Assembly (NCBI GenBank): GCA_026874595.1
Contig: CM049320.1
Coordinates: forward strand, 23,323,714-23,387,713
Source of the DNA: Sipunculus nudus
Lineage: Eukaryota; Annelida; Sipuncula; Golfingiida; Sipunculidae
Length of the DNA stretch: 64,000 bases
Direction: 5' to 3'
This document shows, piece after piece, positions 20,106 to 63,900 of this stretch. Below the pieces are notes generated by a model, which saw only the letters and a list, made by a program, of their open reading frames with translations, was not told the DNA's origin and ran no database searches. The position numbers and the translations under genes are program-made. Position 1 is the first letter of the stretch; each line of letters begins with the position of its first letter.

Positions 20106-23100
20106 GTAATTAAGCCTCAGATGGCGTAATTTAGTTATTTCCGAGATTTTTTTGACAGCTGCCCGATCGCTCGTCGGCCGCCGGCGTCCATTTTACCTCG
20201 TGCACGTTGTTCAGAGTTAATGATGCTTTCCAGTTCCGGTGCATGTTACCGCGTGATTTTAATGTTTTCAAGTCCTGAAGCTTAAATTTTTCTACATCCA
20301 TATCTATTTTATCTTACAGCCACCAAAGTTACGGGTACTGTGAAGTGGTTCAACGTAAAGAGCGGATATGGCTTCATAAATAGGTAAGAAAGCCGATTTT
20401 TCCGGGGGGGGGGGGGGGGGGGGGGGGGCTCAGCCTGAGCACGAGGTTAGGCATTGCAGAGATTTATCTTGGGGTCTTAAGTTTGCTTTGCATAGGTTCT
20501 TGCATTAAAGCCACATCATTTCTGTGGCATTTCCTCATACTCATACTCATAGTCATTTTTCATGATTAAATCAAGTGCTGGCACGCTGAAGACTTTTGAA
20601 GTAAAGGATAAATCAGATCCATTCACTTGCACCTGCTTTTTTCCGAACATTTCCTGCTTTTTATTTTTTTATATATGATTGACTCTGACAGTTGCATGGT
20701 GATGATGTCACTGGGAAGTGGGTGCATTTTCCTGTTCTGAATCAGGAAATGTTTCCAAGATTGGGAAGAAACCATGATTGCATGAACCCATGGGAAAATA
20801 TATTACTTGCATCTTGTATTTTTATAGGATGAATACATTAACTTCTCTCATTGTAGACATTCCATCAAGATTTTTTAAGTGAATACTATTTAGATTTTTT
20901 TTGTGTTTGGTAAACTAACTCCAAATATAAGTAGTTTCTATGTGATAATCCCATGGTTCCTGCCTTCAGACACCTTGCTGACAGGCCTGTAGGATATATT
21001 TTTCCAAACATAACCAGATTAATAAAAAAATTATACTTCTACCATTTCCTGCTTATATGCTGGTTATTTCCAATCAACTCACACCTTTGTCAGCTCACAC
21101 CATACCAACTCACTCCATACAAACTCACTCTCCAGTGGTTACAACTCGCACCCCAGGGCTCAACATTAACTGTTAACCGCTTGCCCAGGGAAAGTGTAAG
21201 TGTAACAAAAAATTTAGGGGGACTACTAGAAGGCCGACTGGACAAGTCTTGAATACAATCAATTATATTTGAAAGACAAGTAAAAGCTAGATGTTTCTTC
21301 CCCCACTGGGCAAGTACTTTAAGAAGTTAAATGTCAAGCCCTGCACTCAAAGCCATACCAACTCACAGCCTGCTGCACACCCATTCTCACCAAATGTTGA
21401 ACTGTGACTCGCTGTTTCCTTGCCCTTTTCAATAAACATTTTACATACCCCCTTTTCTTGTGTATTCAAACTAATTGTTTTATCTCAGTATTATATGTAC
21501 CTTTTCCTTGTCTCGCATCCAATCTCCCCCTTTTTTCTCCCCCCCCCCCCTTCTCTCTCTCCTCCTCCCATTCATTCATTCAATCTTCTTTTTACCTTTA
21601 AATCTCTCTCTCTCTCATATATATCAAATCACTCCCTCTTTCATCTAATCTCTCTTTCATTCATTCTCATCCAAATCTCTAATTCCCCACCCCCTCTCTC
21701 TCTAATATTATTCTTTCCCTATTTTACCTTGTAAAGGTATCATTTTTAATAAGGTTTATAATCTAATAACATAATATGTCGGTAACATTAAGGGTTAAGT
21801 GGTAATTAAGGGGTGTGAGTCGGTATGGACCAGGGTGAGAGTTTGTATGGCTTGGGCTGTGAGTTGGTACACTGGGGTGTGACTTGCCCTAGGTGTGAGT
21901 TTGTATGGAGAGAGTTGGTAATGGTATGGTGTAAGCTGACAAAGGTGTAAGTTGACTCTATACAATCCTGGCTTGTGTCTGGGAAAATGATGCACCCATA
22001 TGTTCAAAAATTTGTTGTCAATCAATCTTTACAATATATATATACTACAAGTAAATCCACATAGAAATATACATGCAGTACCTGAGCCTGAACAGCTCAG
22101 ACTATTGACCGGGCTGGTCTGCTGCTGTTCACATGGATCAGTACCTTGATTTGCCCCAATTTTTAATAATCATAATCAGCATTTTTGGCCATTTTAATAG
22201 ACTTTGATTTAAATATTGCGAGTTGTTTTATGTTAGCTGTGGGAGATTTTCTGCACATTATTCTTACTAATAAATGTATTGAACTGTCTGTTTTCTTAAA
22301 TGAAAACCTTAATATACTGAAACAAATGCTTTTGTTACTTGAATGTAAAAAAAAAGTGAGCTCAATTTTTTCTGACTTCTTTGGTTCTTGCTTAATTTCT
22401 TTACATCTGTGGATCCTGAACATGAATACTGCCACCTATCTCAATAAGAGCCAAATGTGTATACATGCTCAATTTCACATTTTCAGGCCTGGTTTGTTTA
22501 TTTCAAAAGAAAGTTTTTTTTTTTCATATCGATTTTTGCACTGAGAGAAGAGACTGGGGCAAGTTGAATATATTCACTTATCAATATCACTTTGCTGTAA
22601 AGCCAGATGAGCAAATTATATTTTGATCAGTCTAGCAATTGACTGAAGTCTGTCCTTGTCATTGCTTGTATATTGCATTTAACCATGGTGTACAATACAT
22701 TTTGTCATCTTACTATATTGCTTTGATGCTATCAGTATATGCCATCAATATAAGTTCTGCCATACCATATGGAGGTGGTTCGACAAGCAACTTGCCAAAC
22801 CTCAGCTTTGCATAATTTTATCAGATTTAATATTGCCCTCATAGGCGTTGCCAGGGAGATGTATCTCTCTGGTGTCAGAGAGGGCAGACAGTAATTAAGA
22901 AAGTCACATGACCAGATTCATCCTACAGGAACTTGTTTCTGTGACAATCTTACACATGGTCAGAAAGTGATGGGCTGATGACCCATTATAATATATGATC
23001 AGTTGGGTTGTTGCAAATGCCATGCCATGATTGATTGTAATATTTACATGGAACTTTGGCTTTGTGTTTGGGACATTTGTGCTTATATATAAATTAGGTA

Positions 23101-26100
23101 AGTAAACTAAAGGAAAGTCTACATTTATTAAAGAAAACCTAAACCCAAAGTCACTATACAGACATGTTGTCTGTAGAATAATGACAGTATTAGCCTGCAT
23201 GTAGTCCTACATGTCAGTTGAGATTTTGTACTGGTCTATATGGTCAGAAAGTTCATTGTTCTAAACTGATGATCGATCAAGATATTACAACAGATTGCCA
23301 ACACTATTGTAAAATTACCACCAATAACATCTTTCCACTACTAAATATTTCACTGATGACTGTTTTTATGTATGATGCATGGAAAATGCTTGAAACTGAC
23401 GCATGACTTTTTTCTGTTCATTTCAGGGAAGACACCAAGGAAGATGTCTTTGTCCATCAGGTAGGATTTATGATTAATTTTTTTTTTTTGTTATTGTTTG
23501 TTTTTTTTTTGGCAAACAAGTCATTTAAAAGCTTCCACACACTGAAGTTCTTGTGATCCCTTTAATGAATTCTGCAGGCTTCCCATAGAACCCATACTGA
23601 TTTTAGGGTTTTGAGAGGAGCAGGTGTTTTCTTATTATAATATTTTAACACTGCATACAGTCACTCTGTAAATCACCAAATTTATTGTGAATAAACATTA
23701 ATGAATTTAAAAAAAAATACTGTCTAATTTGCATAGCTATCATTGTTAACCTGTGGTTTGAATTGCATCCCTGCACATGAGGCAGTTTGATGGAGACCAG
23801 TTCTGGCAGGCAAAAATTAATACATAATGCCTGGGGCTTTCTCTGTTATGACAAGTGCATTATATCTTATCATTACTTCAAATGATATTGCCCTCATAGG
23901 CGTTGCCAGTGAGATGTATCTCTCTGGTGTCAGAGAGGGCATACAGTAATTAAGAAAGTCACATGACTAGATCCATCCTACAGGAACTTTTTTCTGTGAC
24001 AATCTTACACATGGTACCTGACCCTTTCTTAAGTACCTGTACATAGATACTATCACATGTACCTTGCCCCAGACCTTAACCAAAACCATACTCAGGTTTT
24101 CAATCCCACTCATCCAATATCTCCACAAATATTGGATGAATCTGAGCTAACCACGCATGAGCCTGTCTAAGATTTATTAATGTGTGAGCAAATGGGTACT
24201 TCCCTGCATGGAAATCCAGGAAAAATACTGGACCTTTTGAGCCACATGGATAACAAGTTTAGTAAAATGTCTTTGCATAGGAACCCAGGTAGATATGATG
24301 AAGAGGGTCAGAGAGCTAGGTCAGCCAGGAGATCAATGAACAGGGACCAACAGTTTTTAACCTTATTTCAGGTATATCTTAGTAGTATGCTCAGAATTGA
24401 TTGGCAATCAACAATTCATCAGATATGCTAGTTGTCTCTCCAGACACAGTTAGGGATAGAACATATTCAACATAAAGATCAGAAGTTGGTTATATTACAG
24501 AGGGCTAAGCCTGTGAAAGCTTGAGCCTGTGTTTTTGTGTGACTGAGACTATATATAAAACAGGAGGCCCATGAAAGCCATGAAAAGTTTTGTTTTAGTC
24601 CCAGTCTTATTTGAATAACACGCAATTAAATCTTAATGGTTAATGACGGCTATATATTTTAGCTAATTTATTTTGCAGGTCGACATGGCTATATTCATAA
24701 AGCAATATAGAGTTAGATATAGATAAGTTTAGCTTGTTGGCTCAGACCTGCTGGTTAGCTGGCCTTGGCAAGGGAAGTTTTCAAAGACATGGTTTTAAAT
24801 GCAAGTTTATGTTGGGAAAACCATGATATGTATGTCAGGGTTCCCTGGAAATGAGAAAACCAGGAAAATTAGTTTCCCTTTTTCCAGTCAGCTGAAAGTT
24901 GGGGAATTTCATTGTCCCAGATTAGAAAATGAGCAGGCAGTATGCTATTTTGTCTCAGCATTTCACTCTATTATTTGCCGTGGTGACTCACAGGTGTGCT
25001 AATCCCTTTTAAGTTCTCTTTTTTAAGAAATGCTTGTAAACTCCCATTTAATTACCTAAGCATCCATTTATCCTAATGTCACAGTGCTGTGTATGATTGA
25101 ACACGCGGTCAAAAATAACTGGTCATGTATGGTTAGTCCTCTCTTTCAGCAGATGTATAAAGAAATGGAATATGCATCTTCCTTGAACTATACATTTACC
25201 ATATCCGTAAGGCTTATATTACAAATAATGTTAATAGTAACATAGTTGCTATTTCTGATCATTTGTGTCTCACAGCCCCTAACTTAATATTAAAAATAAA
25301 TGTTAATTTTCAGACTGCCATCATTAAGAACAACCCACGTAAATACTTGCGCAGCGTGGGTGATGGGGAGACCGTAGAGTTTGATGTAGTAGAGGGGGAG
25401 AAGGGCAACGAAGCAGCCAACGTCACTGGACCAGAGGGCGCTCATGTCCAGGGCAGCAAGTACGCTGCGGACCGCCGCCGCAACCGCCGATTCTACCCAC
25501 GTCGTGGAGGAGGAGGGCGCAAGAAGATCGAGGTAAAATCTATTCCTTTTTTAAAAAAATTGTTATTTATGTCTTAAATACTGCTTTTTTAATTCTCATT
25601 GTGCTGCCATATTAGTAAAATTATAAGATAAAATGGATCCAGAAAGTGTCTGCTTTTATTGTCCTTTAAATTAAACATGTATTTAAAGTAAAAATGAGCC
25701 AAGAAATTTGAATGAGTATCTCAGGAATGGTTCAAGCAGTTGGCCTTTAATTTCAATGAAAATTGTTACCCAGCCTTCCTTGGAGCCCTTCATCTTTTAT
25801 TATACACCCATCATATGATGAAAGTAATATGGTTTACCCACTGTCCATCTGTTGACTTTTAGTGTCACGGCGATAACTTACAGGGGCTTTGATTGATTTT
25901 CACGAAACTCATAAGTACTTCCCAACAGACTCTCTTGCCCGAGTTGATTATGGATAACATCACTGCATATTTAATAAGATCACAGATCACTAGGCACTTT
26001 TGTCGTCGCGATAACTAATTAGGAATTTGAAGGATTTTTATCAAACTGTTAATCAATTAAATATCTCGTGTAAGTTCGATTTTCAGCAAAATCCATACAA

Positions 26101-45766: not shown

Positions 45767-47645
45767 CTGCAAAAATGGGGAGAGAATTATTAGGAAATGA
45801 TGCCACAACAGCTACACCAAAAGAGAAAATATAAAATAACGTTAACTGATCTTCTACGAGACGTAAATGTATTCATACATATATACTTATATAAGTCTGC
45901 AGCTTAAACATGCAAGCTCTGCTGAGTATGGAAGGATAAACCTTACATACGATGAAGTAATAAAGCAATTTTCTGGTACAGTTGTACAGTAAAATTGCTG
46001 ATTCCTTCGACTTCTCTACTTATTTTCCATTGTTTCAATAAAACAGACCTGCGACAGAAACTCTTTATTACTCCTTTTACACGACAAAGTTTTGCTTCCC
46101 ATCATAGGTATTACATAACTGCATGCTTTTCGCTTAATAAAATTATCCGTACTTTCGACATAATATTTCGTCTCCATTTTGCATATTTTTATTTTTTTTG
46201 TATTCTGGGAAGAATAGACGATCATATCTTCCTAGTGCTCAATCCTTAATTCATATTTTTTCTACGTCCATTTAATATAATAACATTGTAAATATAATGT
46301 ATATAAATTGCACAAATACAAAAATAAATAAAAATATGAAATCTTCACTCCTTTCACTGTAAGATATCTTTAGCGGTACTATAGACAGCTGGTTCTAACT
46401 GTAACAGCACTGTTCCATTATCTTATAGGCACTCTCTAAATTCTACTTTTATTTCAGACCCATTTAGGAAACGTCTGGGGAAGAGAAATCGTGTTGTACA
46501 ACAGAGCGTCGTTAATCCGAACGCTGTTTATCCAAAATATTTTATCCGAAATTGAACTGAGAACCGGAACTTTGACAGTTTATCCGAAATGTAAACATAG
46601 TTACATTTTGCCATACACCTACGGAGATGCATTTTTAATGCAGATTATATCCTAGATACTGCGCATGCGCAAAGTAAAGTTAATCCTGGCATGAGCGGTC
46701 CGCTGTACATCTAATTAGCGATCGTCCGTTTTACCGACTGAGACTTGAATATTTTAAAGTTTGTGATCCAACGAATACCTTCCTTCAAAGTCTAACCTCT
46801 ATGTAATTTTAAAATTGACAAAGTTAGGAGGAAATTGTGAAATTACGTTGTAGACTTGTTGTTAATAACTAATGTTTCTACCATTACAGTACGTTGCCAT
46901 GACAGCAAGTTCTATGCTTAGTATAGTTAACCCACTTTCAAGTACAAGTATACAAGTAAACAAGTTAACTCCATTGGATGAATGTCAAACAAACATAGTC
47001 CAATGCATACTGCATTATCATTAAACACAAATACTGGGGCAATTTGTTACATTGTTGCATATGCCAAGCACGTTTTCGTGCAGATAAAATGCTATTTAAC
47101 CCCTTCCCCCGAAGAATAAATCAAACAAAACCGAAGTTGTGTGATTTTGCTAAGAACTGCCAGGGTTTATGTTTTTTTTCACATATATAAGAAATGGAGG
47201 CTGTGTGATTATTAAGGCACTGTCGGCCCCATGTAAAGCAACTTTTGCAGCAGCCAGTATTCTAGTGTCTCTCTTTCTAATTCATCCATGTAAAGTCAAT
47301 AGTGGCGATTAGGTTTTATTTTTTTATTGCATACAAAGAAAAATATACATATACTGAAACAGATAAATACAAATACGATGAACAATATAGACATACATAT
47401 AACACAAAAGGAAAATGACAAATGGTCATTATATATATACTAGCTATTATATAGAGATAAGTTTAACATTTTTTTATCTTTCGGCACATAGCAGACCTTC
47501 AGATTTTCAAGATCTCAACACATCTCTCCCACTTTTTATTGTGTGGTCTCTTTTACCTTTCATTTTGCTGCTCTATCTTCTATACTTACAATTTTAGCTA
47601 AGAATTCTTTAAATAGCTTAAATATTGGTTTCTTTTCCTCACATC

Positions 47646-47700
<55 letters not shown>

Positions 47701-50700
47701 CTTTTCATCAGAAGTATTACTGCATTTAAAGTAATATCATGGCAAGTACCAAGCATCACCTGCACATAGTCTTTTAAAATATTATATTTTTTTAATAAAA
47801 CAGAAGTTTTAGACCATATATTTTGCACAAAAGTGCATTCCCAAAAGAGATGGTTCATAGTTTCTTCCTCTTCCTTACAAAAAGTACAGTTCTTATCTTC
47901 TTTTATTGAAATTTTACTAAAATTGGGTTAAATGTCAAGCATCTGTGCAATATACCAAGTTGAAATATCTTAACTTTGTTGATATTGTATTTCTATAAAT
48001 GTTTTCAAAACCTCTCCTAACTAAATCCTCCTCTATACCTAATTCGCTCTTCCATTTCATGGTGGATTTCAGGGGTTTAACACACTTCTACGTTATCAAT
48101 TTTTTATAAACATACTTTGACAATTTCTTTTGTTCCAATAAAAGCTCATATTTGGGTTTTTTTCCTTATTAATGTCTGAAAGTGTATCTAACATTTTTTT
48201 CCATTTTTGTGGAATTGCATTCAAGAGGCTTATATAATGCATATAATTACACTTACAGTGAAATTTGTCTTCTAGTTCTTTAAACGTAAAAGATTGAAGC
48301 CTTCTGTTTTGCTTGTAATTATAGATAAAATTTCAATTCCCAGATTTAAGTCGTTTATAGAAGGCACAATGTCCATTGATTTTAATATTTGAGTTAAACC
48401 AAAGAGACTGAGTAAATATGTTATTTTATTTACCTCTTCAAAATTATATGCACACCAGGCTTCGATAACATTAAACCAAAAAGGCGATTTGTATCTGAAA
48501 ACATGTGCATCTTGCGGTTTCAAGGTTACAAAGACAGATAGATAAGTCAGTTCTTAGCATCTCTAAGATAACAATATATAGTTTACTTGAATGTGATTAA
48601 TTTTTTATCGTTTTATCCAGTTGATTTTTAATGCCTTTTCTTGTGATATTACGTCAGTCATACCTATACCACCCTCTTTTTTGGAGGCTATCAAAGTTTC
48701 TCTTATTATCCGTTTTCTACCTTTTGATCAAACAAAATCTCTTATTAACTTATTTAATGTTTTGGAATTGATTACTTGGGGAAGGAAGGACGGAAAATAA
48801 GTAAACAATTTTAGAAAGAATCTGAGAATTCAGAATTGTCACTTTACCATATGGTGTTGATAATCTATTTGACCATAGTTTTAGAATGTCTTTTATTTTT
48901 TCTAGTTTTCCCCCATAATTAAGACTAATCAAATCTTTTGTATCTTTTAGGCAATTAGGTTAAGAAAAATAGGTTTTTCAGTATTGACTGTATACAAACC
49001 TGCACATATGGGGCAGCAAGTGTTAGAGATCTGAACCTTTCTCTTGCATGCAAGCTTTGGACATTTCGTTCTTTGACAACGTGCTTTCCCTTTCTGAAAA
49101 CAAAGACGGATATAATGAAAAAAATAATACCTCAATGACAAAGATTATCGATTTAGCTTTCTTCGCAGAGTTAATTTATCATTTACAAGGTTTTCAAACT
49201 ACCTTGAATTCGTTCTTTAATCCACCACTGCATTTTCAAAAAGGTTTTATTTATATATATATATATATATTTTACTTCTCTTGGTATACATTATAATATC
49301 ATTTATTATAAAAGAATCCAATATTTCTCTAAATGATAAACGGGTATTTCTTTTCAAATGTAATGCAATAAAATGGCCGTTTTTATAATCGCAAGAGCAA
49401 TTTTTTGAATGGCCGATGACAAATAGGCATGCACAATTCGGATAACTATGACGCTATATTTAAATTGAATGATTAATGTTCCTTACCCCCTGTAAAATAA
49501 AGTATGTGAGTGTAAGAAATTACACTTACTCTACAGAGGCACGTGACACACTTGAGCGTTCCAAATGGTTCCACCCTGGGGTTCCATCGAGCCCCGTTCG
49601 GATACTCCAAACCACGGAACTTACAATCTGAAAATACAGAATGGTCACGTGATGTCATATGCAATCACTGATTTATTCAATTGTTCAAATGTTACTTTGA
49701 AAGTTAAAAAAATCGAACACAACAAATAGTTAATATCACAAAATTCTCATTTAACGTGATACCCTCGCGATACCTTTCACTTAAACAGATTGTGAATGAA
49801 TGAATAAAATATTTATTCCTGAAATAAGGCCTTATGCCTAAAGATTCATCGATGTTAACATTTTTACAAAACACATAATAATACAGGTTTAAAACAGAAA
49901 ACTGGTGGTATACGTACAGTGTAAATATTGTTATAAGAACTTATATAATCCATGCACATTGCAGTTAAACAAGGAATCGTTCCAAGATAAGCACCATATA
50001 CATGGTACTGATAAGAAACGTATATTGCCTTTGTTGGAATAGCACATACGTTCTCTCAAGTTAAATAGACTGTATACTCACTACCATATTTCAACGTTCT
50101 GTCTTTTAACATTTTCTCACTATTCTTTTTCCTCGGGTCATAATCCTCTGCGAGAAACAAAAGATGGATCAGTTTATGTGGCATACATAAATATGGCCAT
50201 AAAAATAAAACGTTGCATATTTTATTAAGTATTTCGAAGTTTTTACAGATTAGATAAACTATCAATTAGAACATGTTCATGCATGTAATATTATCTAAAA
50301 TAGGTAAAATATATCTGTTGACACAATAATCGTTATTAGCTTCAGTTTTGCTTTTATCCGGGTAACGGTATTAGAAATAAGATCAATATTTTCAGACCGA
50401 GTTATTTCTTTGAATATCCACATGAATACAAAGAGATGCTAGAAATATGAAAAATAAGGTCCATCTTTGCTACCTTTTAAAAATGAAACCCCCTGAGACA
50501 TTATGGTTTCAAATCATGACTTAGTTCTAAATCATGACCGTGGTCTAAACTGGAGGTATAAACTTGCAGATTTACAAGATGTTTTATAGGTAGCGTTAAT
50601 GTGAATAAATTTCCTTGTTTTATAAGCATGGACTCACTTGGACATGATTTACAGCAGTCAGTGCCGTTCTTTCTTGACGCCATTGATTCTGGACAGTCGA

Positions 50701-53700
50701 GGGGAGGACACGTTATCCTTGTACAGTTGTACGGACTATTACCTCGCTGGAACACAAACAAAATTGACTGTATACATTCTACTACAAACCGTTGTACGAA
50801 CAAATAGAAAAAAAAATGTTTCATCATGCGAAATATTTCTGTACGAATAATTCGTACATTAATTAGAAGATCTTATTTAGATGTATGTCGGTTTTCAAAC
50901 CGCTTAGTAAAAAAACAGGGTAAATACTATCATGCGAATTGTGCTGTACGAAAAGCTAGAGGATTAATGAAAGTTTAAAGCTCTGCCCTTGTCATTTATA
51001 GGAAACAAAGAAATATATGATTAAGCGCAAGATAGTCCCTGGAACATGCAGAAATGTTCGTTCCTTTTCATTCAAGCTCCAGCAGATCCTTCCATTAGAT
51101 TTTCTGACGACTACTGACTTTTGTAATTTGCTCTACGGGATTTATTTTTACTTTTTTCTTTCAATACGTCCTCATTGATAAAATTGCAATTGTAAAACCG
51201 TACATATAGGCAGTGCAAAACATTTGTTGCGTCATGTATATTATCGCTGGTAATAATTAAATTTATATTCTGAACATTAAAATAGATAAAATAATCATTC
51301 CATCACAGAAGTAATTGCATTTGGATTTAATAACAATTTGTTTCGAAGAGATGTCAGGTTTTCCTCTGAACTTGACCCTGGGCCTTCAAGTATACTTTAT
51401 TTGGTCTAAGTTTATATCGATTTCTTGAGTCGTTTTGCTTACCGAACATGAGCAGATTGCACACTCTACATAGCCGAATGGTGGAACGTACGGATGCCAT
51501 AGTGTACCAAACGTGTGCCAGCGTTTGTCCCCGTTAAAGAAACACTTCTCTTTACTGGGAGTCCCTTCTGAAATATTATAATTATCATATATAAACTCTT
51601 CATCTATATGCATATAAACATTTTCAAGGAAGCGAGGAAACATCTCCAATAATTTTTCATTAAAAACTATACACGAATCAATTTATTTTTTTCAATGTTT
51701 TATTCTACATGATTTACCAATAACTTTCTTTTAAATGCGTCCTTCAAAAAGTCCTTGAAAAAGTTCGCCTACTCCGATTGTCAATCAGTCAAAGCAGATT
51801 TCCCTGATGTTTGTATTGTATGTTAAGGAAATATCCCTATAATATAATCCCTTATTTATTAAAGGTGACGCTGAAATAAGTAGGGTACACATTTATTAAT
51901 GTGAGAATGCAACTACCTTTTTCCTCACTTATATTATCTCACATAAATACTTATAAATATTAATACAAATTATGCAAAAAAAAAACTTATATATATACCT
52001 TAGCTCGACATTTATCAAAATCATAAGGCAACTGAAAGCTAATATATGTGTAAACAGGAATCTGTTTGTTTTCTGATCAAGTCACTCAAATACAGAAAGA
52101 GAATATTTCTTCAGCAGCCATTAGATGATGCCTTATACTGCGCATGTCCGATGACCCCGTATACACTCACTGATGCATTGTGGGCAGCAGTCTCCCGGAA
52201 CTTTGACTGGACGATCACATTTTGGTCTTGGACACTGCACGTCATGACAAACAACTTGGCCATTCTGTGGAAAATAAAATAAATATCATCATTCATCAGT
52301 CTGAAATAGAGTAAAGACATACTTTAATTTTCTTTCCTGGTGCGCCTAAACAGATCTGTAAAGAAACGGCTCAACTGTAGAGCCTCAAGCCTCACACCGT
52401 GCAACTGTTTAAAGGGGCCCAATCACCTATAAAGCATGTTGAGATAACACGAAAAACAGCTTCTTCCCTTTAAAATAAATCTATACCTGCCAAAATATTG
52501 CCTTGAAACCGTTTGCTTACTCCTGTAAACGAGTGTTAAAAACAGTGAACCGGGCGCGATCGCAGGTGTAAACATAAACACAGTGCGTCGGGCCGTGTGC
52601 TTTGCGGAGCCACAACACATGCCAATCAGGAGATGCCCTGACTGACTTGGCTAAAATAATGTAATACATGTTCCCGCTAGCTGAAACTCCTCTTAATTGG
52701 ACCTCCGGTCACGCGGCCTTGTTGTGGTAAACAGACTGTGTTTACCAACACGGAGGGCTATAACAAGGTGTTAAACAGTCGTATGCGAGGAAATGAGACT
52801 GTGCTAGAATGATTTTGCTGGGATAATTTTGTATAAAGCAAAACTGAACTAATAGTATGAAATAATAGGCATTATATTGCTCCTGATTATGTCCCTTTAA
52901 CTTCTATCTACGGTTTCCAAAGCTGCGACACTTTAAATATTTTTTCCCTCACAAAACGCTGCGATATTCGTAAGCAATCTCCGATGTTTAGGTATCAAGC
53001 TTTGCCAGAGCTACTTCAGCCGGATGAATTATGTACGTGCATGGGTGCGTGTGTTTGTGTGTGTACTCTAGCTGTGTGAACTGTGTGTTTTTTCACGTGA
53101 CTGTACCTTGCAGCTGCACGTGCTGCAGCTATTCTTAGGATGTTTAGGGATCCAGCTGTCCCCGAGCTGGTACAGTCGTCCGTTATCTTTACATCCTGTG
53201 AAGCCCGTCGAACCGTTCGTGTGAACGCCACCTACCGGCGTGTCGTCTAGTATGTCGTTGATGGACGGACGCCGGGCGTCAAGTTTATAACACTTGTTGC
53301 TGATTTCAACCTGAAGAAAAAATCATATTCCTTGTAATTTTTGGTTTTTACCTTTGTTCAGAATCGGTGTTGCTTGGCTATGTTCTGGTGACATAGTTTT
53401 ATATTGCGCACACACTTATTTTCGCATAAAATAGAAATTTTAATATATTAAACAACACAAAATAGGTAAAACATATGTAGGAAACTTTCTTAGGACAAAG
53501 CTACTTCTTGCCGATTTGATCACTTTTACCTCTTGTTTAATCTAACAAGGTGATCGATACCAATATTTTTTCCCATTTTTCGAAAATTGACTCGATCTAG
53601 GTGCGGTACATACAGAGCGAATTCGAGGTCGTATTATCTCACTGACTATTCAAATGTAGCATTCTTCAAGAAAAAACATTTATCACATTTTTTCACTGAA

Positions 53701-56700
53701 TTTTAAAAAAAAACATTAATTGGTTTCTTTCGAACTGTCTGTATCATGCAGCCAGATACCTATACGGGAATAAAACGTGTAGCGAAAAAATGGTGCGCGT
53801 GAACGTTACCGCAAGCGGGTCGTATAACTGTCATCATGGTTCATAACTCATTTGATCAAAATGGGAAAATTTTATCAAAATTTAAATAATTACTCTTTGT
53901 CATTGCTATTCTCCAGCAGAGTCAGATATCGGTTTGAGTAGCAATATTTCCTGCCTTCTTGCCTCCCTCACGGTAAACATCTTCCCTATAAACATTTTAG
54001 TTGTGTTTTACCATAATACACGGGTATGATTGCTAATATTTATTTTCTTTATCATAAAACATTCTATTCAAATAGTAAATTTTACAAGGAGTTAATTAAT
54101 TACACTTTCCATATATTTCCCTCCGCCGGGAAGGTATGCGTTCATCCCCGTTCGTGTGTGCGACTGTGCGTGTGTGTTTGTTCACAACACATAATCGATT
54201 AGATCTTGGTGTGAATCTGACACATGATCCGGATTGAGGAGCGTTATCAAGGAATATTCACAAATGTAGAGTCACTTAAGCACGATTGAACCTAGGTATA
54301 TGGGCCGAATAAGTGAACGCAAACACGCTTTTTGGAGCATCCCACAATAGACACCCCTTTATGGCGGAGGCCAGCATTCCATAGAATGCAGATTTCAAGT
54401 TTATATATGCAGTACGACAGTAAAGAAAGAAATCACTTAGAGTAACAGTACTGTACCTGAGCACTGATCTCTCCTGTGGGTCTGGCCTTAGTCGCCACCA
54501 CCAGTATTGCCGTTCCCTGCCCCAGGGCTCGGTACAAGTTTTCCGACAGCTCGCTCAGCTGGCCCAGCAGCTGAAAGTAAACAGTCCGCCTGGTAACACT
54601 CGGTTTGTTTATTCCTTGACCGACATATACTGGGAACGCAAATGTAAGGCAAACAATACGGCACTGCTAGCTGTATATTTCATCTCTACCCTTTCTGTTT
54701 CTTTCCTTTTTTTATAAATTATTTGATAACTGAACAATAATTTGATTTAATGCACCATCAAATAAATAATATTCACCTGATTCGAGTTATTTATCTATTT
54801 ATTTTTCCTGAAGTAACACAATATTTAACTGCGTCACCGATTAAATACCAATTACCAAGTTCATTTTATAATATTATTCAACTTATTTATACAATGATTA
54901 ATTGTTCAGAAAAGACTCTTTTCCAAGAGTTCGATGATTAGTTCACATAATTAGTTTACCAGATGCCACATTTCGGGGGAAAAAATCACATATTTAATAT
55001 ATTATTGCGAAGGCGGAGGTAATTGTGCTCTATCCAGTGCTCTCTAGTTTATCATAAGAAAACATCTCCTAACCCTTCCTTCCGTCAGATCTCCGAGCTT
55101 CTCCACGTAATCCGTCCTTTTGGTGATGATGTCATAATTAATCGATCTCATCTTAAGAAATACGCCCACGCTGCCTCGTTCTGACCGCTCGTATCCTGAC
55201 GTCACAACTTGATAATGGAGAGTACAGCCGTCCTTGATTGACAGCCAAGCCACGCCTCCTGCTTCTGTAGTTACCCCTCTTTTTCCGTCTCTGGCTCCCG
55301 CGAGGATAAAATTATTTTCTGGACAAAACAAATTATTACAATCGATGTTATTTATCACTCAAAAAATAGTTCATTAATATTCAAAGACTATTCATACGAA
55401 TCGGTAAGGAAAAAGATGGTATTTTTTATAAGAAAGGATTTATAATATTAAAGCTTCATCACGAATAAAACAACGCTAAAATATGATTTTAATATCTAAC
55501 AGCCTGTTTCAACCGTTCCACTGGTGTGGCCCGAGGTCAGTTAATTATCCCCCACTGTTTGCAAACTTCCTCTCTTGCAGTGCCGCACAACGAGCTTCGT
55601 ATAGGCGCAGCCATTTTTGTTTACACGCTGAGCCAATCAGATTTCCTTTTACGAGCTACGCTTGGCGCAGTCATCGCTGTTTACACGCTGAGCCAATCAG
55701 ATTTTACCTCTACTAGCCTCAAATTTTTGGGTGTTTGACAGCTTGTCAAACCTGAAGAATCCTTCCAGTTCTCACAGCGTGTGAGTGGAAGGTTCCCGGG
55801 AAGTCACGCGCTGTGTAGCAGAGCAGCAGCACCAACGCCCCCTCAGCGCCGAACGCCCAAAACCCAAGCAACCAGCATGCAAACAGTATGGCACTAGTTT
55901 ACAACCTTTACTACGAATGATGACAGAGCCATCGTTGTTTTCTTCATTTGTCGAATTAGCAGAAGTATCTTGGACGTTAATGCCCGGACGAGTATATTCG
56001 TTGCACTTACCTGACCTAGGTTGAAACATTGCGTCATAGAGCAGCTCTGTCAGACGCCCCCGGAGAACGCTCTTGGAGTGACCTTGACGACCCAGGTTCA
56101 GGTACATCTGACCTAGCAGTAACCTGTGAAGCTGAAGAGCGTCGGCTCTCTTACAGGTAGCGCTTACCTGTAACCAGCAGTAAAGATATATTTACTATTA
56201 CATTTTGAGGTTTCTACATTGGTGTTCGTAAATCGATGACTGCAGTCCTGTAAATAAGTATATGACATATATATCTTAAAGATATATACCGATTCATAAA
56301 ACCAGACATATTAAATATACATGGAATATAGTGGGGTTTTTTTTCCTTAAGATATAACGGGGTATCTTTCAAGATTTCGTTCTGAAACCGTTTGCTCAAA
56401 TCAAGATTTTTTTTAAGCTTCCATGCCCCCCCCCCCTGTTACTTCTGTGTTTCTTCTCTCAAGTTTCTTCTTGCAAAGTTGTGGTATATGCACAAGATCG
56501 AAACTCTGGTTACGTAGTCTTGTTGTCGTATTAAAATAGATACGAATGGACTGTATTTATTTATTTACTGTTGTTACAAGATTAGTATATAGCTGTATTT
56601 TATTACGTGTATGTAAATCATATATAACGGGTGTTACAGAATGGAATGCTTAATTGAGCATCCTGGTTATATCTTTGTATTATATTTACTATTTACTACA

Positions 56701-57228
56701 TTATATAACCTCTTTGCCCTGCCCTGTTATGTTCCAGTATCGCACGTGTACCCCGACCATTCCTATTGTGCACCCGAGAACAATAGGATCAGTGTCAGTC
56801 TTTCACATGCCCCCCCCCCCCCCCGACCCGAATCGCACAAAGCATAATCTCGTAATCTCGTATAGTCTCGGCTTTTCAAACCACGACGTTAGCTTCATTC
56901 TATCCACATTCACCTGATGATCGGGTCGCATCCCGTGAAACAGTCTGTTGTGAATTAACAGTGTTGTTTTTCTTCAGAGTTATATATATATATATATATA
57001 GAAGGTAGTGTTACGCTCCGATGTAAAGTGCTCTATGGCCTACAAACTAGACCAGAGCGGTATAACTCTGAAGAAAAACAACACTGTGAATTCATAACAG
57101 TCTGTTTCACGGGATGCGACCCGATCATCAGGTGAATGTGGTTAGAATCTAACCACATTCACCTGGTGATCGGGTCGAATCCCGTGAAACAGACTGTTGT
57201 GAATTAACAGTGTTGTTTTTCTTCAGAG

Positions 57229-57293
<65 letters not shown>

Positions 57294-60908: not shown

Positions 60909-63900
60909 GTAATAATACTATTAAAACAATCTGCATCAAATAACTATCCCAGGGTTCTAATACAAAATTAATGCTTTAACAAAAACAAGTAAATAATTGA
61001 AAATATATCATTATGGTTTGAAAAATTTACTCGAAGCGATTCGGTGTTAAAAAGTTAATTTCGTTTCAAAAGATATAATTCCTGATTATTAGTATTTAAA
61101 TGAAATAATGAAATAGTAAAATATATTAATAAAACAATTTAATTGTAAAATTAATGAAAACAAATATTTGTGTTAAGTGGCTGATTGAATTGCAAACTTA
61201 ACTTAATGCTGAACTGGATGGCAAGACTGATATGGTTTAATGGGACAAAAAACAATATTTAATTTGAATATACTCTCATATAACAAAACGAATCAATAAA
61301 ACGACGTAGAAGAATTGAAACATCTGGTTACAATCCTATATGAACCATGAAATACTCTTTTAACCAGCGACACCAGGATGGCCGAGTGGTTAAGGCGTTG
61401 GACTTAAGATCCAATGGACATATGTCCGCGTGGGTTCGAACCCCACTCCTGGTAGCCTATTTTACATTTTCTTTTACATTTGTGCAATTCCATTTCTCCC
61501 ACATGCAATACAAAATGTTACACTAGCTAACTCTAGTCCAGAAACAAAATATTAACTACCAAAAAAAAAAAAATGGAAATGCTTGAAAAACCTTTTCGTT
61601 AATACTTGTGGCCCCGTCTCTCGGCAAAAGTTGGTACTGAAATACCGCTGTTCCAATCTGCTCATTCACAGAGCAGCCAGCAGACATCAGTGCCGGCGTG
61701 AGTGTGCTAAATATATCTGTACATACATCAGCAGGCTGATCTATGTGTGCGCTACCTTGTTAGTGCCGACGGAATGTGCCGAGACAAGATTATTCACTTT
61801 AGCCTAGGCACTGTGTATATTACCCGACTTCCACGCTACAAATCCCGAACATTTGTGAATGACTGATGTATGTACAAACTGACCATATATTTACAAAGCG
61901 AGATAAGAATAGACCCGACATGACCAGCTACATGATATGTAGCACCTAATTTGGTCGTACATACCACTAGATAGACGTATTTTCCTCAATTTAGACTTAT
62001 ATGCTATGCGAGTAACGTTTTTATTCTGTTGAAACTTTGAAACATGGAGGAGATCGCACTGTCCAGAACGTGTGAATTCATGTCGTTTGGTAGTAGGCCT
62101 ACAAACATTGTATATGCCGATTAATTATTATAATTATATTAATACGTATAATGCATTCTGAATTGAGAGTTGATCTGAACCTAGCAGTTTATCCTGTACT
62201 AAAAAAGCAACATAAATAAAACATAAACAGCAGGATGGATACTGTTAGCCGAACTTTAGACGGTTTTCTATATAATGTAGTTACATGCAGACTATCTGTT
62301 GAAAAATTTAGAATTTAAACCACCTTGGGTCTTTTATGCTAATATATATATATGTATATATATAATGCCTATATAAACTGAGTCATTATATATATATACA
62401 TATAAAATGACTTAGTATATATAGGCATTATATCGGCCACTAAGCAGCCCCACTTATGACGGAGGCGAAGTCTCCCGCCAGCCATAGACATTTAATTTTA
62501 CTCAAATGATAGAACAACTGAGGCACAAAACTTGTGCAGAAGTCAAAGGAGAAAATCAAATTATGGGACCATCCTTTGCGGTTTGTCAAAGGTAAATTGA
62601 TTGACTGAAACCAAGATGCTGATTGAGAAAGCCGTCTCCTCAGGATGGATATCACTAAATGTAGGCTACTGACTATGAGGTAGGTTTTATAGTAACGCGG
62701 CTGTAACTAACCAATGAGATTTGTATTTAGAAATTTATGGCACGGCTATAATTATCGGTGCATGCTATTAACACTTCAAACCATGCATCTTGACTGAAAA
62801 GTCCTAACTGGGTTGAAAGGTAACTGGCTGAATCCAGGATTTTGGAATCAATGGGAGGGGCCTTGGACCCTAAAAATGGTCCACAACTCCAGAAAGAGGG
62901 GTGTACCCTTGCAAGCACTGTAGAAAACATGCAGAAGGTCAATTCCTTATAGCAAAGGAATAGGAGTGGTGGTAGCGGGGAATAGGGTGGTTTACCCCCC
63001 CCCCCCCCTCCCCATCCCACACACCTCGTGGATCCGTACCTGAGGTACGAGTATATTGTATATTTATATACGACTTTATAGACCATTCACTTATAATATT
63101 ATACATGTATAATGCCAATCCCATTGTAAACGTGCAAACGATGCATTCATAGGAGGCTATACAGACATAGAGATCATATATATATATATATATATATAAT
63201 GCTTAAAATAGACAGGGACCACACTAGTCTATAATTGACATTATACTACGCCCAAAATACCACACTGACGTACAAATCTAACGATATATTTTCCATCCCA
63301 CCTATAGGCACGTGACTTTTTATCGGCTTGTGTCTGCCTCTCTATTAATTAATGTGTGCCACATGTTGAAATGCTCAGATGTAACATGTTCTAGTTTATA
63401 ATACGCCGCACAGGGGACGCCACTGAGTTAAACTAAAAAGCCCCCTGAAAATCGGAGAAAAAAGGCCTAAATATTACGTGGAAGTCCTTCTCATATCGTA
63501 ACTCACTTTGAATTAACAGACACATATACACACATTGATTTAACTATATTACGTAAGAAAAAAAAAGAATTAAGAATTAATTCTTTTTATTAATGAATGA
63601 ATTAACTGAAACATCTCAGAAACTTAAAATCTCTATTGGATCATATAAATATTTAAATGTCGGGCATAAAATGGAGAAGAATAATTCATGAGCAAGAATT
63701 AAAATATAAAGTAACAGATAAAAATTTGGATTTTACAATATTTCTTAATAAATGTCTGCAGTAATACGGAAATAATGTATTAAACATTGTTCATACTTTT
63801 GAATTTGCGTTAACGAAAAATGGGTAAAAATAAGACAACATCAAACTTGATTCAAAGTAAATGATAAATACCTGTTTGCAGCAGTTCACTAACAAAAAGT

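Follow-up and report, generated by a model that had tools for sequence, protein, structure and literature searches.

How did three hammerhead ribozyme-like motifs come to lie within 300 bp of an apparent chordin intron of Sipunculus nudus, and do they belong to the gene or to something inserted into it? The motifs had been noticed in a sequence-only reading of a 64,000-nucleotide stretch of the genome (GenBank assembly GCA_026874595.1, contig CM049320.1, positions 23,323,714 to 23,387,713; hereafter the window), and all three proved to be real (motifs A, B, and C, Table 1). With a probability of about 0.9, we consider them to be minimal type I hammerheads carried by the terminal repeat of a retrotransposon of the Penelope type (Penelope-like element, PLE).

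Motif A parses as AUUCAC / CUGAUGA / U-CGGG..CCCG-U / GAA / ACA-GUC-UGU / U17 / GUGAAU, with a full core and U17; helices I and III have 6 and 3 bp, respectively, and the 4 bp of helix II sit on a U.U mismatch. The sequence-only reading had credited this motif with every core base and a perfect 6-bp helix I, as we also found, and the cleavage position it had predicted agrees with ours. Both motif A and the 48-mer common to 23 of the 25 repeat units fetched from the genome (see below) carry C3 U4 G5 A6 N7 G8 A9, G12 A13 A14, the A15.1-U16.1 pair, and H17. The hammerhead order attributed to all three motifs is intact in A, but B breaks the pair 1.1-2.1 and C alters the core base A6, so that two of the three are damaged at or next to the core. 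The U.U at the base of helix II (10.1-11.1), previously regarded as unusual, is present in motifs A, B, and C and in 24 of the 25 fetched units, the exception being the C.U of the unit at L018 6567. It has a precedent in the axolotl hammerhead HHR_Amex2, as described in PMC7229834. According to the curation rule given in PMC3088659, core-adjacent bases are paired in all stems, and a U.U at 10.1-11.1 would be rejected; all three motifs depart from this rule by the U.U, and B also by its pair 1.1-2.1.

Table 1. Features of the motif-bearing intron (positions in the window; R1, covariance model described in the text)
Feature	Positions	Strand	Remarks
PLE copy truncated at its 5' end (terminal portion of the 3'UTR, repeat A with ribozyme, (TA)n)	56653..57000	+	98.3% identical to the 3'UTR-hammerhead-(TA)n of L024 over 352 aligned columns
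88-bp terminal repeat (pLTR-like), copy A	56897..56984	+	1 mismatch to the sequence common to 23/25 units in loci L009-L028
Hammerhead motif A	56908..56955	+	core intact; predicted cleavage after 56949; found by the descriptor and by R1 (26.1 bits)
60-nt tail (start of the element's 5'UTR) joined to inverted repeat B	57001..57060	-	class as in L014, L018, L019
Inverted 88-bp repeat, copy B	57061..57148	-	3 mismatches
Hammerhead motif B	57090..57137	-	C.A at pair 1.1-2.1; on the strand of chordin; R1 23.8 bits
Direct 88-bp repeat, copy C, head-to-head with B	57146..57233	+	4 mismatches
Hammerhead motif C	57157..57204	+	core A6 changed to G (CUGGUGA); R1 19.9 bits with filters off
(TA)n tract, 3' end of the second insertion	57230..57290	+	20/25 fetched units lead directly into (TA)n

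The combination had been judged very unlikely to arise by chance. Allowing up to 3 mismatches, the 33-nt core block is present at three places in the window, against an expectation of 0. With a descriptor allowing the U.U, motif A was the single match in the window and 40 dinucleotide shuffles of the 64 kb gave none; with loosened stems, there was one match in the window versus seven in the 40 shuffles. Because the descriptor was shaped on motif A itself, it constitutes only moderate evidence on its own. The three motifs are not independent of each other but copies of one repeat, 95–96% alike.

Related hammerheads elsewhere in the genome (1.43 Gb, 153 contigs) allowed the helices to be compared. 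A pattern combining a canonical G10.1-C11.1 hammerhead with (TA)n gave 343 matches genome-wide versus 0 for the reversed pattern; 100 of the 343 fall at 36 places by hand count, the others being phase repeats, and comprise at least four further hammerhead families. We fetched 20 siblings (L052-L071), chosen by the core and the first helix II pair, so that their G-C at 10.1-11.1 reflects selection. Some have decayed, with 0 or 1 pairs left in helix I in L054, L061, and L063 and no parse for L062. In an alignment of 26 rows reduced to their stems (23 distinct, loops cut out by hand, all 20 siblings kept including the decayed ones), 84.6% of the pairing cells are paired versus 66.4% in shuffles. 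The covariation score amounts to 0.487, compared with 0.183 (sd 0.024) for shuffled alignments, none of 500 of which reached it, and with at most 0.104 for slid ones. Both-sided changes occur in 9 of the 13 pairs, in each of helices I, II, and III, across five families; taken as counts, the 9 pairs were reached by 61 of 500 shuffles and the 20 further pair types by 185 of 500, which is not clearly above shuffles. Helix covariation, proposed by the sequence-only reading as a check, is by the covariation score found in all three helices across the five families.

The Rfam hammerhead models gave no match at gathering in the 64-kb window and none at E ≤ 10 in 2.5 kb or 101 nt. RF00163 searched genome-wide produced matches of 23 and 21.9 bits and none above its cut-off among the 73 scored of 150,758 candidates, and models of the Rfam hammerhead clan touched 11 of the 20 siblings at E ≤ 10 (best, RF00163 with 27.6 bits), 0 of 20 at gathering. 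We built a covariance model, R1, from the 20 siblings alone, leaving out the family of the window. Over the 64-kb window, R1 ranked A (E 3.6e-5) and B (E 1.7e-4) first, followed by a match of 12.8 bits; copy C was not listed at E ≤ 10 with default filters over the 64 kb. When R1 was applied to the locus with filters off, A, B, and C were all found and the next match had 2.6 bits. R1 also recovered 25 of the 25 units in the 20 fetched loci, together with a further sibling at L018 6889-6940 (32.8 bits). A covariance-model score at background had been named beforehand as evidence against a hammerhead; such scores were obtained with the Rfam models, but not with the sibling-built model, in which A and B came first. 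Matches of the locus to microRNA and virus-UTR models of Rfam were rejected, as they follow the inverted-repeat hairpin and lie far below the cut-offs.

What carries these hammerheads? The 88-bp repeat that contains them has at least 43 matches in the genome, the window included (842 first-look candidates, 40 scored). We fetched 10 kb around each of the 20 best matches (L009-L028), a biased sample that holds 25 units, 23 of them identical. On the 5' side, 17 units follow one and the same 3'UTR, four stand in head-to-head inverted pairs, and four adjoin foreign flank. On the 3' side, 20 units lead into (TA)n, three into a 60-nt tail and (TA)n, and two into the 5'UTR and an ORF. In L024, this ORF of 700 residues lies between two direct ribozyme-bearing repeats, the predicted cut site being located ~180 nt before the ATG. 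All 64 scored matches (of 4,224 candidates) in a protein search with the ORF are 99–100% identical to it and without internal stop; pieces of the ORF occur in seven of the 20 fetched loci, the one in L021 comprising just 15 residues.

Reverse transcriptase models of PADLOC match the 700-residue ORF weakly (E 9.2e-6, 1.1e-4, and 1.2e-4), whereas profiles of Pfam, NCBIfam, PDB, and PHROGs do not recognize it. No profile match to a GIY-YIG endonuclease was found in the ORF, and tblastn detected no relatives in IMG/VR. The reverse transcriptase that a PLE encodes in a single ORF is thus represented by weak PADLOC matches, with Pfam silent. The ORF carries LYRDDG and, after a cysteine cluster, YIG..RYNNHK..NTELSKHIW, which together we take to be motifs of Penelope-like elements; the tentative GIY-YIG assignment is based on the latter. 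Related ORFs accompany the siblings in two of eight longer stretches (L072, 48% over 277 aa, E 1.9e-80; L079, 42% over 88 aa, E 1.6e-15), and the other six gave no related-ORF match at E < 4.

Two full-length copies of the element (L012 and L039) begin (TA)n/CCGCTCTGG, where the slash marks the boundary, and the L012 copy ends GAGTTATA(TA)n. The second type of end, found in L014, L018, L019, and the window, is CTTCTA(TA)n, at a distance of 60 nt beyond the first. With pLTRs, tandem or partially tandem copies, and an inverted pLTR with an optional tail, the element shows the layout described for PLEs (PMC3846280, PMC11167929). The guess of a Penelope-like carrier is supported by the ORF with weak reverse transcriptase matches between ribozyme-bearing repeats, the sibling ORFs, and the PLE-pattern insertions, and the hammerhead reading itself by the sibling families, their covariation, the sibling-built model, and the ORF between ribozyme repeats. 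Two further inverted arrangements were observed: at L015 5947-6026, the last 27 nt of the element form a palindrome (92.6% alike) with (TA)n at its center, embedded in another repeat, and L069 7-68 consists of two head-to-head hammerhead repeats of another family, a long palindrome that matches a microRNA model below cut-off and resembles the window in its inverted arrangement.

Intact elements often stand in tandem, with units of ~2.92 kb that include the ORF and one ribozyme per unit. On contig C17 (42.720-42.858 Mb), 24 of the 64 listed ORFs lie at whole multiples of ~2,924.5 bp over 137.5 kb. The array amounts to ~48 positions of ~2.92 kb, of which 30 were seen, counts that are taken from the genome assembly as it stands. 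Six of six checked gap positions contain an ORF start and a ribozyme unit; compared without gaps, five of these units match perfectly and one has 11 mismatches. In its assembled form, this array of an open retrotransposon is satellite-like. On C12 (49.443-49.507 Mb), a minus-strand and a plus-strand series of units face each other. The junction between units, GTTATA/CCGC, is exact in 12 of 16 stretches taken as upstream of ORFs; the remaining four comprise a (TA)n/CCGC start, another sequence, an N, and a stretch on the wrong side of its minus-strand copy (L044), which is as uninformative as L051, whose bounds leave no room for a ribozyme.

Would such a hammerhead still cut? The hammerhead fold differs from the fold of minimum free energy, with −6.9 versus −11.3 kcal/mol for the 48 nt of the motif, −10.6 versus −19.0 kcal/mol for the 88 nt of the repeat, and −73.7 versus −79.0 kcal/mol for a 308-nt tandem junction. 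Together with the U.U at helix II, these more stable competing folds would suit a relic motif, in which the helices are kept as a structure for protein binding or for the start of reverse transcription and the ribozyme no longer cuts. In the same direction, hammerhead cleavage in PAc (Poseidon from Anolis carolinensis) is reported to need protein and to be dispensable for insertion in vitro (PMC11167929). However, the core bases are retained in near-identical copies beside open ORFs, the core is also kept in sibling families with different helix sequences (the sibling rows having been chosen by the core), and the repeat of the axolotl hammerhead with a U.U reportedly cleaves 22% in one hour (PMC7229834). 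We consider the relic unlikely, albeit a serious alternative; the hammerhead of the PLE probably cleaves in some setting. Within the window, copy A alone looks capable of cleavage, and pairing with the inverted copy B would lock it into a long hairpin.

One such setting could be a dimer. In each of the five families, the main variant has a helix III segment that is self-complementary over its whole length, except for an unpaired central base in the 9-nt segments, and this self-complementarity suggests dimers. Ten of the 12 typed segments are self-paired, and two minor variants lose a pair; the segments of L062 and L063, in which A15.1-U16.1 is broken, were left out of the typing. The chance figure for this self-complementarity is 4e-4, assuming independent families and equal bases. 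We see about even odds that the hammerheads act as dimers, in which helix III pairing from one copy to another could favor the active form over the more stable single-motif fold. Dimeric cleavage has been reported for newt and axolotl hammerheads (PMC7229834, PMC6155905), and dimeric action has been proposed for PLE hammerheads (PMC7761336).

Beyond the observed motif anatomy, covariation, ORF, insertion boundaries, and one array, we infer cleavage, dimerization, and processing as steps of the following mechanism. Transcripts of tandem copies would carry a ribozyme at each unit junction, the self-complementary helix III segments would let two ribozymes pair, cleavage would follow after U17, and cutting at successive junctions would release unit-length RNA. 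Target-primed reverse transcription would start at GUUAUA or CUUCUA, 35 or 95 nt past the cut, on (TA)n DNA. Since the GUUAUA start is 35 nt past the cut, a full-length insert requires a template that is either uncut at that junction or closed there; as such a template would lead one to expect, the junctions GTTATA/CCGC, which have no extra TA, do not coincide with the site of ribozyme cleavage. RNA cut in vivo would show ends at GUGAAUUAAC, and circles would show U17-G1.1 junctions. Short inserts starting exactly at the predicted product end occur at C3:51182513, C8:19179589, C11:2175539, C11:70582104, C1:11550893, and C6:19697994, although TA microhomology confounds such start counts and the C1 and C6 cases come from 100 of 216 matches, many of which are phase repeats. 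Among 100 of 180 matches binned, the 5' ends of short inserts form no clear peak at the cleavage site, neighboring positions being as frequent. An extended version of this scheme, in which the autonomous PLE would work as a giant retrozyme, with dimer-cut array transcripts giving 2.92-kb circles and rolling or concatemer copying building the arrays, appears quite improbable to us.

Short ribozyme-only insertions do exist (L011, L013, L016, L027, and the B-C insertion of the window), as would be expected of a non-autonomous retrozyme or satellite of the kind found in mussels, corals, and newts, i.e., a short unit (a few hundred bp) in tandem, with transcripts that the hammerhead cuts and that are then circularized. 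Retrozymes are described as carrying type I hammerheads in repeats of 150–450 bp (PMC7229834). The tandem units in S. nudus, however, span ~2.92 kb with an ORF instead of being short and non-coding, and no short-unit tandem array of the repeat is present in the 20 fetched loci. We regard a non-autonomous retrozyme as highly improbable; with a PLE as the carrier, the solo ribozyme units have the appearance of incomplete insertions of this autonomous element.

The motif-bearing intron itself holds two (TA)n-ended insertions, namely the truncated copy with repeat A and, at 57001-57290, a tail-inverted-direct insertion of the class seen in L014 and L019. The placement of the motifs in a chordin intron holds in part. 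An exon at 51389-51682 on the minus strand matches chordin (PDB 9rd6, E 7.2e-21), but the two putative exons flanking the intron gave no chordin match; the host intron is apparently that of the chordin gene. As chordin runs on the minus strand, motif B alone is in the sense of the gene. It is barely conceivable that a retained intronic ribozyme acts here on chordin RNA, like the conserved intronic hammerheads reported from amniotes (PMC6155905), because the motifs do have putative exons on either side, in a gene that matches chordin, but the only sense copy has its 1.1-2.1 pair broken, the locus folds as a long hairpin on both strands (about −215 kcal/mol), and the repeat recurs elsewhere in the genome with the many matches given above. 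Retrotransposition brought the motifs to this place, and they are foreign to the chordin gene itself; a possible influence on the splicing of chordin is unsupported.

Elsewhere in the window, we noted a SNORA17 match at 22832-22948(+) (30.6 versus a gathering threshold of 29, E 0.062), a tRNA gene at 61372-61454 (65 bits), an open frame with a cold-shock domain at 25161-25574(+) (E 1.5e-6) on the strand opposite to chordin, and a retroelement remnant with a zf-RVT domain at 47601-47927 (E 4.5e-8).

Minimal type I hammerheads of Penelope-like elements were reportedly described by Cervera and de la Pena in 2014 and by Lunse and co-workers in 2017, and the hammerheads of the window look like a new family of this known kind. 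A literature search tentatively suggests that the family is unrecorded. Like the PLE hammerheads described in PMC7761336, they are of type I with a small helix III, reside in a pseudo-LTR, and occur in tandem copies for which dimers have been proposed. They differ from those by a 3-bp helix III within a self-complementary segment of 9–10 nt, by the U.U, and by belonging to another sequence family. PAc, as described in PMC11167929, shares the tandem copies, a hammerhead near the start of the ORF, AT-rich targets, and two start sites of reverse transcription that define an optional tail; unlike in PAc, the whole hammerhead in S. nudus precedes the ORF, (TA)n forms the end of insertions, and one array extends to ~48 units. 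The Penelope elements of Adineta vaga resemble the present element in their direct and inverted pLTRs, head-to-head palindromes, and optional tail, which measures 31 bp there versus 60 nt here (PMC3846280). The parts of PMC3846280 drawn on here make no mention of hammerheads in the Adineta vaga elements, which the present element does possess. The axolotl retrozyme hammerhead HHR_Amex2 likewise has the U.U at the base of helix II and a short helix III and works better as a dimer, but its carrier consists of non-autonomous 350-bp tandem repeats (PMC7229834).

The present case indicates that the hammerhead models of Rfam can miss elements of this sort. The role of hammerheads in Penelope-like elements has been termed a mystery (PMC7761336). 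The S. nudus genome offers at least five hammerhead families sharing one layout, open copies that are nearly identical, and an array of ~48 units with ribozymes at the checked junctions, so that the processing of tandem transcripts and the idea of dimers are directly testable in one genome.
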